From Bacillota bacterium (lineage in GTDB: Bacteria; Bacillota; Clostridia; Christensenellales; CAG-138), in assembly GCA_016286445.1 (NCBI GenBank), contig JAEESS010000027.1:1-33312 (forward strand): DNA of 33,312 bases, in the 5' to 3' direction. The position numbers and the translations under genes were made by a program. The notes under the pieces were generated by a model. That model had not been told where the DNA came from, did not search any database, and was given only the letters and a program-made list of their open reading frames with translations. Shown in pieces: positions 7,054 to 12,251 of this stretch (positions are counted from its first letter, which is position 1; each line of letters starts with the position of its first letter).

Positions 7054-7078
7054 ATGAATTATCCTGCGGATGTGAATT
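7054..7078. repeat. Single hairpin unit of the AATTCAY-spaced family
   Basis: ATGAATT (7054-7060), hairpin ATCC-TGC-GGAT (7061-7071) and GTGAATT (7072-7078) are the reverse-strand form of the units in the arrays at 11911-11999 and 12162-12251. The next unit to the right looks decayed. Confidence 0.7.
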
Positions 7079-11770: not shown

Positions 11771-11869
11771 TGCGCCTGCGGCGCAGTGATATCCGCGCTG
11801 CGCGCGGGTGATATACGCCTTCGGCGTGTGATATATCCTTGCAGGATGTGATATATGCCTTGCGGGCAT
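11771..11869. repeat. Array of five hairpins spaced by GTGATAT
   Basis: Hairpins at 11771-11785, 11793-11807, 11815-11827, 11835-11847 and 11855-11869 have stems of 5-6 bp and triloops TGC or TTC. Each neighbouring pair is separated by exactly GTGATAT (11786, 11808, 11828 and 11848). Stem sequences differ entirely from unit to unit while pairing is kept. The array starts 8 bases after the stop of the LCP-like gene. An 8-bp hairpin GATTCTCC-TGC-GGAGAATC follows at 11879-11897. Confidence 0.9.
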
Positions 11870-11910
11870 GTTCAGGAGGATTCTCCTGCGGAGAATCGTC
11901 TGATTATTAT

Positions 11911-11999
11911 GATGGCTGTGCCGTCAATTTATGTGCGAAGCATAATTCATGACCGTCAGGTCAATTCACGCGCGTAAGCGCAATTCATCCGCAATACGG
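11911..11999. repeat. Array of hairpins spaced by AATTYAY
   Basis: Hairpins at 11911-11925, 11933-11943, 11951-11962, 11970-11981 and 11989-11999 are separated by 7-nt spacers AATTTAT, AATTCAT, AATTCAC and AATTCAT. Stems are 3-6 bp and all different, with 3- to 5-nt loops. Confidence 0.88.
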
Positions 12000-12033
12000 T
12001 AACACGGGACGCCGGGGTCGGCATCCTCAACAA

Positions 12034-12155
12034 TCCCCCTCATCCGGTCCCTACGGGACCACCTTCCCCACCTAAGGGGGAAGGCTTTTGGTGCGTATCC
12101 AGAGGCTTCGCCCCCTTTAGGGTGGAGAAGCTCCGCGAAGCGGTGATGAGGGGGG
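12034..12155. repeat. Palindromic element of the CCTCATC family
   Basis: CCCCTCATCC, the hairpin GGTCCC-TAC-GGGACC (12046-12060), then CACCTTCCCC, an AAGGCTTTTGG segment, and the complementary end GGTGATGAGGGG. The overall ends are inverted. The whole gap 11763-12261 holds only repeats and no gene. Confidence 0.78.
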
Positions 12156-12161
12156 TATCAT

Positions 12162-12251
12162 GTGCGAAGCACAATTCATGTTCCTTTGGAACAATTCACG
12201 GCGAAGCCAATTCATGTGCCGAAGGCACAATTCACGTCGGCTCCGCCGTAC
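12162..12251. repeat. Second array of hairpins spaced by AATTCAT/AATTCAC
   Basis: Hairpins GTGC-GAA-GCAC (12162-12172), GTTCC-TTT-GGAAC (12180-12192), GGC-GAA-GCC (12200-12208) and GTGCC-GAA-GGCAC (12216-12228), plus a CGGC-TCC-GCCG stem (12238-12248), are separated by AATTCAT, AATTCAC, AATTCAT and AATTCAC in strict alternation. The array abuts the 3' end of the leftward ASCH gene. Confidence 0.9.

Follow-up and report, generated by a model that had tools for sequence, protein, structure and literature searches.

The window, by which we mean the whole analysed stretch of 33,312 nucleotides, carries between two open reading frames an array of five short hairpins with different stems, joined by four invariant GTGATAT junctions (Table 1). 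The original prediction had described this array and a gene ending 8 bases before it; recomputing the coordinates confirmed the array base by base, and the stop codon of the upstream gene lies where hairpin 1 starts 8 bases on. The array is internal on its contig and, as the window has no rRNA match, it does not lie inside 23S rRNA. It is followed by a tail motif and a sixth hairpin whose stem, in contrast to stems 1 to 5, recurs across many copies in the genus. In some other copies the variant GTTGAGGA replaces the tail GTTCAGGAG, and at locus L528 this variant occupies the ribosome-binding position of a gene of the IVP family described below.

A second type of array, with the linker RTGAATT, lies on the minus strand at about 11925-12245. 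The last GTGATAT on the plus strand ends at 11854 and the RTGAATT-type linkers on the minus strand begin at 11944; the two linkers are not reverse complements of each other. RTGAATT arrays contributed 34 distinct units in the examined loci, with TNC loops in 6 clusters, TNNC loops in 6 and GNA loops in none.

The pattern of three linkers (GTGATATN{10,22}GTGATATN{10,22}GTGATAT) has two overlapping matches in the window and none in each of 100 dinucleotide-preserving shuffles, in agreement with the prediction that it exceeds chance frequency. When folded as RNA, the segment 11755-11900 has z = -4.33, and none of 200 shuffles folds as well.

Table 1. Positions of the features at the array locus, counted from the first letter of the window
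Feature	Position	Strand	Remarks
RTGAATT sister array	7054..7078	+	similar hairpins
Stop codon of upstream gene	11762
Hairpin 1	11771..11785	+	sequence TGCGCC-TGC-GGCGCA
Gut-1 match (Rfam RF01706)	11784..11859	+	74.8 bits (cut-off 50)
Linker 1 (heptad)	11786..11792	+	GTGATAT, linker-pattern match
Hairpin 2	11793..11807	+	CCGCGC-TGC-GCGCGG, 6 bp, loop TGC
Linker 2	11808..11814	+	GTGATAT, linker-pattern match
Hairpin 3	11815..11827	+	ACGCC-TTC-GGCGT, 5 bp, loop TTC
Linker 3	11828..11834	+	GTGATAT, linker-pattern match
Hairpin 4	11835..11847	+	ATCCT-TGC-AGGAT, 5 bp, loop TGC; one T-A pair is C-G in the orthologous G069 copy
Linker 4	11848..11854	+	GTGATAT, linker-pattern match
Hairpin 5	11855..11869	+	ATGCCT-TGC-GGGCAT, 6 bp, one T.G; C-G in G069
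Tail motif	11870..11878	+	GTTCAGGAG, common to many copies in the genus
Hairpin 6	11879..11897	+	GATTCTCC-TGC-GGAGAATC, sequence common to many copies in the genus
RTGAATT sister array	11925..12000	-	similar hairpins
RTGAATT sister array	12155..12245	-	similar hairpins

Gut-1 as an interspersed many-copy repeat

By covariance score the window array is a member of the Rfam family Gut-1 (RF01706). Neither this membership nor the fact that relatives of the array precede PF05635 genes was part of the original prediction. Gut-1 was published as a likely noncoding RNA known from the human gut only, and the text on Gut-1 in that paper leaves its repeat nature unmentioned (PMC2864571). This genome (2.65 Mb in 109 contigs) has 23 Gut-1 matches on both strands, 13 of them above the cut-off and some of them the two halves of one element, and Gut-1 is here an interspersed many-copy repeat. 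Within the taxonomic family, matches were found in 60 of 103 genomes, in 41 of them above the cut-off, and a single genome has up to 32. An even sample of the phylum gave Gut-1 in 5 of 398 genomes, this one included, in a search with stricter filters that recovered just 11 of the 23 matches of this genome. E. coli, among the control genomes of the Gut-1 search, gave a match below the cut-off.

A scan of named genomes for three GTGATAT linkers returned at least 118 stretches. Among the 80 titles of the matches listed, 62 are Clostridia, Oscillospiraceae or other Bacillota, many of these from ruminant gut, and the other 18 titles name something else. In L227, a Clostridia MAG from sheep colon among the matches listed, five matches recur with a regular period of 68 nt. 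On viral contigs 95 stretches fit the linker pattern, with chains of at least three folding linkers at 9 loci only. As for the expectation that other arrays of the genome would share the spacer, GTGATAT does recur, the two-linker pattern giving 28 overlapping matches over the whole genome compared to 0 for the reversed control pattern; it is not general, as other arrays carry GTGAAAT or RTGAATT instead.

The copies come in two forms. Single arrays, of the window type, were counted where they have at least three linkers (n = 101): 45 have three, 51 have four, 4 have five and 1 has six. Two-sided elements consist of a first array, a stretch of about 30 nt that repeats the 3' arm of hairpin 1 and an antilinker, and a second array in which the linkers are reverse complements of those in the first. 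Several chains are present in 58 of 178 distinct elements, and the order is linker then antilinker in 54 of these 58; one of the four exceptions also contains the reverse junction. Both halves share the linker type in 61 of 63 distinct two-sided arrays. Covariation of the first base between mirrored linkers was considered and found unconvincing (GG 35, AG 4, AA 4, GA 3). In minimum-energy folds with DNA parameters of three two-sided elements, computed with no shuffled control, linkers pair with antilinkers and the hairpins on both sides form stacked four-way junctions. The idea that the tail GTTNAGGA is a general relic of a ribosome-binding site was dropped; its regular expression fits just 14 of the 101 single arrays, and the tail is consequently taken as lineage-specific.

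Neighbouring genes were called with a home-made gene finder and ARAGORN. A tRNA gene adjoins 19 of 55 two-sided elements, often with a terminator hairpin, judged by eye, between the gene and the array. After one and the same tRNA gene, two-sided arrays with different stems stand in G069, G059 and G063 (L304, L305, L336, L545); at this site the linker in G063 is RTGATGT, and G000 has a decayed array and an IVP gene.

PF05635 genes and tandem heptamers

Two-sided arrays are followed in G034, G026, G036, a viral contig and G413, which belongs to another taxonomic family, by small open reading frames of one family, and the three that we tested are PF05635 (23S_rRNA_IVP; E from 4e-24 to 6e-28). PF05635, also called IVP or S23, has been described as a family without known function, and its Xanthomonas representative as a homopentameric toroid (PMC4990558); a resemblance to the retroelement protein Avd has been reported (PMC10053308). 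A solved relative, 2rld, is one entry with five chains. Among the 103 genomes of the taxonomic family 47 have PF05635, and it co-occurs with Gut-1: 41 genomes have both, 6 only IVP, 19 only Gut-1 and 37 neither (Fisher p = 3e-8, with the genomes treated as unrelated). The 19 of 60 Gut-1 genomes without an IVP match include copy-rich ones (G004 with 32 matches, G011 with 17, G072 with 17 and G076 with 16), these MAGs being 78-90% complete.

The test set came from 77 IVP matches. Two that were known beforehand (L110 and L121) and five weak ones were set aside; of the remaining 70 we could locate 68, of which 65 have an upstream stretch of 150 nt or more. The two-sided repeat test looked within 360 nt upstream for a 6-mer of any sequence that recurs at 14-34 nt and is then followed by its reverse complement, likewise repeated, and 534 ORFs from array-rich loci served as controls. 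Such a repeat precedes 39 of 65 IVP genes compared to 17 of 534 control ORFs. When the units between the repeats are also required to fold, the counts are 27 of 65 and 7 of 534 (p = 1e-22); the 12 IVP genes lost by this demand include plain repeats (L545) and arrays missed by the strict frame (L525, L556, L574). The two-sided repeat is absent before 26 of 65 IVP genes, and folding units before 38 of 65. A TATAAT box with at most one mismatch lies between the second array and the IVP start in 21 of 32 cases, compared to 289 of 1600 random stretches.

The linkers before IVP genes vary by lineage and include GTGAAAT, ATGATAT, GTGATGT, ATGATGT, GTGAAGT, ATGAAGT, GCTAAAT and GTTATAT. Mean identity of the IVP proteins is 68% in pairs with a shared linker core (117 pairs) and 52% otherwise (478 pairs), which would be expected from descent alone. 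In the size of the hairpins and the polarity of the loops the arrays linked to IVP genes are like the window type. In none of the 65 upstream regions did we see an exact GTGATAT array; the TGATAT-type arrays before IVP genes (L546, L555, L557) carry ATGATAT, with at most one GTGATAT each. This genome has one IVP match, which lies on contig C77 (the window is on C73); upstream of it stand nothing more than a decayed array of ATGAAGT type and some plain heptamers.

In the phylum sample PF05635 was found in 73 of 398 genomes, this one included, and in 60 of them above its cut-off. Two-sided arrays are not a general feature of the family: a two-sided repeat precedes only 1 of 13 located IVP genes in this wider sample (L595), and this one is a plain heptamer repeat. 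Since only this gene passed, the two-sided test was replaced in the phylum sample by a heptamer test on 33 upstream regions, namely those of 29 of the 30 best-scoring loci, of three plasmid records and of one phage record. Tandem heptamers are frequent in this sample: a lag of 7 is the unique best in 20 of 33 IVP upstream regions and 29 of 323 controls, and strong lag-7 stretches are found in 16 of 33 and 12 of 323, respectively. Inspection by eye showed long purine-rich heptads and then their inverse together with IVP on a Treponema plasmid, and in the phage record a Gut-1-like two-sided array preceding the IVP gene. Of 30 IVP-bearing genomes chosen for the purpose, 13 contain the pattern AGGAGNNAGGAGNNAGGAG, with up to 154 matches, as does 1 of 30 genomes without IVP. 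At least four of the 30 IVP-bearing genomes were known beforehand for a AGGAGNNAGGAGNNAGGAG heptad before IVP, which leaves 10 of 26; the reversed control of the pattern has one match in each of four genomes. A Nostoc plasmid (L608) carries an IVP gene with tandem GGAAGTC-like heptads, then a XisI gene, and a site-specific integrase two genes on.

Loops, stem turnover and alternative explanations

Units were defined as the stretches between successive linkers. A first cut at 75% pairing set aside 123 of 490 distinct units; the main count of loops and mismatches used a 70% cut, which kept 436 units, and stem perfection is partly built in by this cut-off. Among 395 tri- and tetraloops, T..C loops number 240 and G..A loops 3: the 255 triloops include 150 TNC and 3 GNA, the 140 tetraloops include 90 TNNC and 0 GNNA, and the remainder are other loops. 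On the other strand these loops read GNA or GNNA, with C-G closure in 383 of the 436 units, and the window loops TGC, TGC, TTC, TGC and TGC become GCA, GCA, GAA, GCA and GCA. Hairpins with cGNAg or cGNNAg loops have unusual stability as DNA. The Rfam model has loop preferences of its own, and we therefore ran the test again on loci selected by other means; the polarity was again found in loci picked by the linker pattern alone (119 vs 2 of 232 units) and in arrays with other linkers reached via the protein alone (34 vs 2 of 59 units).

Mismatches on the linker strand are GU 18, AC 35, CT 56 and AG 9; the other strand thus reads G.A 56, G.T 35, A.C 18 and C.T 9 and is rich in G.T and G.A. With each similarity cluster counted once, GT 16 compares with AC 29 (p = 0.07) and CT 28 with AG 8 (p = 0.001). 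Tandem mismatches are present in 21 units, many of them related, which read as tandem G.A on the other strand and in 18 cases have, by eye, the YGAR motif on both sides. Without these units the cluster counts are CT 17 and AG 8 (p = 0.11), so that beyond this one group of related units there is little G.A excess, and the IVP-selected arrays with other linkers have no G.A excess (CT 3, AG 0, GT 3, AC 6, identical bases 13). The loop polarity is robust and the mismatch asymmetry weaker.

The linkers are nearly fixed, the most constant part of the arrays, and the stems vary, by cassette swap, by unit gain or loss and by paired substitution. At the window locus the array is retained in the more distant G069 (69% protein identity), where it is 96-98% identical in 100-nt windows compared to 58-85% in the upstream gene, 84-91% in the downstream gene and 49-74% in other intergenic sequence. 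That the array is better kept than its flanks could point to a function at this locus instead of a parasite. A full pair change of T-A to C-G distinguishes stem 4 in the two copies, the one case of paired substitution, and the T.G of stem 5 is C-G in G069. Repeats resembling a second one of about 200 bp with TTGAC...GTCAA ends (G000:C39, L091, L373), which in G000 lies inside the first hairpin of the rsmG array, fill the orthologous site in G058, G076 and G077.

The proposed gain and loss of units at orthologous loci was found in one case, G077 and G076 differing in one array by exactly one 24-nt unit. The suggestion that stems are copied in as ready palindromes agrees with the end of a gene to which we assigned the name rsmG from its sequence, and whose coding end KKPL is common to species with and without the array. 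Here three stem sets, or cassettes, stand between an identical first hairpin arm and an identical tail: set 1 in G000, G075 and G069; set 2 in G060 and in a contig-end fragment of G071; and set 3 in G073, with the linkers changed too, to GTGATGT. A complete rsmG copy without the array is also present in the G071 MAG, which may therefore be a mixture of strains. In G069 (G069:C82, L390, L391, L394) an rsmG-like gene lies as overlapping fragments beside its array, perhaps through partial duplication.

At two gene ends, coding sequence makes up one half of the first hairpin. G000 complements the end of its host gene exactly (CCGATCGGCGGAGT/ACTCCGCCGATCGG), and at one gene end the non-coding arm tracks a synonymous difference (GGAG/CTCC in G000, GGAA/TTCC in G077); G077 has a single mismatch at another position, and G076 also has one. 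We do not hold that the first hairpin is always copied from the host gene end, as it covers the stop codon in only 9 of 52 cases. At L097 (about 980-1011) and also at L339 a 14-bp hairpin spans the stop codon, one arm being the very end of the coding sequence and the other its exact reverse complement.

These copied gene ends and the paired change between orthologues are what would be expected if stems were kept perfect by mutation alone, through hairpin-templated correction or template switching, and the arrays were functionless slip products. The linkers, however, are beyond the reach of such correction and are the most constant part; inversion templated by an arm would erase the loop polarity of 240 vs 3; and the association with a PF05635 gene does not follow. 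We consider this explanation unlikely, and of the slip proposed in the original prediction we retain a possible part in the origin of stems, constant linkers and companion gene being left unexplained by it.

About as unlikely, in our judgement, is the published view of Gut-1 as a noncoding RNA (PMC2864571), that is, a multi-hairpin transcript whose exposed GUGAUAU segments bind protein, although the RNA fold is strong and protein-bound RNA would fit both the constant linkers and the paired stem change. Copies are many, dispersed and on both strands, and two-sided copies often stand (by eye) after terminators and before promoter-like boxes. On the linker strand, for which an RNA scaffold had been proposed, there is no excess of G.U (GU 18, AC 35) and TNCG tetraloops number just 1; the loops fit neither RNA rule. 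If RNA of the other strand were selected, GNRA should prevail among the complement tetraloops; it is found 41 times compared to 49 for GNYA. The lack of a GNRA, UNCG or G.U preference argues against RNA.

A further explanation, which we hold to be slightly more doubtful, is a role at the 3' end of a message: the array would stabilise or terminate the transcript of the gene whose stop codon lies 8 bases before it. Single arrays do favour the sense strand of the upstream gene (++ 34, -- 14, convergent 26, divergent 6), their first hairpin can overlap the stop codon, and the window array is retained at the same place in G069. Unrelated sequence nevertheless occupies this place in the closer relative G058 (81% protein identity) and in others, loops and mismatches favour the antisense strand, and the two-sided relatives often have, by eye, a terminator on one side of the array and a promoter-like box on the other (box in 21 of 32), which speaks against the mRNA stabiliser proposed earlier. 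That the arrays are REP/BIME-like repeats moved by a RAYT (Y1) transposase, as might be thought of dispersed intergenic palindromes in many copies, is very improbable and was rejected: Y1_Tnp, present in 41 of 103 genomes, has no association with Gut-1 (27 of 60 genomes with it, 14 of 43 without, p = 0.23), Gut-1 occurs without Y1_Tnp in 33 genomes and neither in 29, the copy-rich G026, G030, G011 and G038 lack it while G004, G034, G021 and G025 have it, and the palindrome sequence is not conserved.

A probable DNA element with a candidate protein partner

We regard the window array as probably, by a modest degree of confidence, an ORF-less copy of an interspersed DNA repeat (Gut-1) that is related to PF05635-linked heptad-hairpin elements; it is called ORF-less because the sole IVP match of the genome is on another contig. 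The observations behind this reading are the copy number, the architecture, the concordance of linkers and antilinkers, the gene association and the loop polarity, with one unit gain or loss, cassette replacement at one locus and a paired substitution as single cases. It is weakened by the finding that no exact GTGATAT array precedes an IVP gene, and a pure DNA role leaves the sense-strand bias of the single arrays unexplained, which also counts against it.

The fuller element would consist of an intrinsic terminator, often that of a tRNA gene, a heptad-hairpin array, an array with the reverse-complement heptad, a promoter-like box and the gene for PF05635, a four-helix-bundle protein. The element may act as DNA. 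The heptads would then be the likely recognition sites of the IVP protein, which might form a ring that places about one subunit on each heptad, and the hairpins would be likely spacers that need only fold; stems of free sequence could then drift and be swapped while the heptads stay. A ring protein with one subunit per site would explain the constant linkers, the number of about four repeats and the free sequence between them, by analogy to TRAP on its triplets. The hairpins are predicted to be most stable on the antilinker strand, through cGNAg and cGNNAg loops and tandem G.A pairs, and hence should form when that strand is single, in replication, repair or transfer, and the two halves might zip through linker-antilinker pairing into a ladder of four-way junctions. 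Copies like that of the window would spread or be converted in trans. Mobility of the Gut-1 copies is something we infer from their number, their exchange and their patchy distribution; we found neither an excision product nor a transposase, nor an empty site with a duplicated target.

A wider and more tentative idea, to which we give less than even weight, is that PF05635 proteins are the heptad-reading proteins of widespread mobile elements without a recognisable transposase, and that tandem heptamers and Gut-1 arrays are their cis sites and ORF-less copies, which would multiply via folded single-stranded DNA and ladders of four-way junctions.

Several known systems resemble the arrays in part. 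The Rfam family RF01706 is the same object, hairpins joined by GUGAAAU-like linkers, modelled as an RNA gene of three hairpins on the linker strand; here there are many copies of variable length, often two-sided, with better loops on the opposite strand and relatives tied to PF05635. The heptameric tandem repeats named STRR, such as TAACTGA in Beggiatoaceae and GGGNATC in Xanthomonas and Nostoc, are likewise 7-nt, dispersed, intergenic and lineage-specific; in Gut-1 the heptads are kept apart by hairpins. REP, BIME and REPIN sequences are interspersed palindromes after genes, as Gut-1 is; Gut-1 lacks their conserved stem sequence and the RAYT association. Integron attC sites also conserve structure over sequence and use one strand, whereas Gut-1 has many small hairpins with a fixed linker. 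Intervening sequences (IVS) of 23S rRNA with an S23/IVP ORF are also stem-bearing and encode the same protein family, and the Coxiella IVS has tandem heptamers before the S23 start (PMC4990558); Gut-1 differs in lying outside rRNA, in its hairpin arrays and in its many ORF-less copies. Streptomyces telomeres have closely packed palindromes whose GCA loops, on one strand, are closed by a sheared G:A pair (PMC4513846), and they share with Gut-1, in its other-strand reading, GNA loops closed by C-G on one strand, but Gut-1 arrays are not at chromosome ends and their stems are unconserved. Two papers on heptamer repeats (PMC4679880, PMC4692102) nowhere use the terms S23, four helix or PF05635 in their main text, and among open-licence full texts we found no paper in which Gut-1 is treated as a repeat or PF05635 is connected with heptamers or with arrays of hairpins, save for the heptamers of one IVS.

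With this analysis a noncoding RNA of the catalogue is recast as what is probably a DNA repeat, whose relatives have a companion gene, and the PF05635 family gains a concrete and testable partner or target. Two unexplained bacterial oddities, heptamer repeats and S23 proteins, are linked to each other, and the arrays offer a natural case in which structure and short linkers persist although the greater part of the sequence is replaced.
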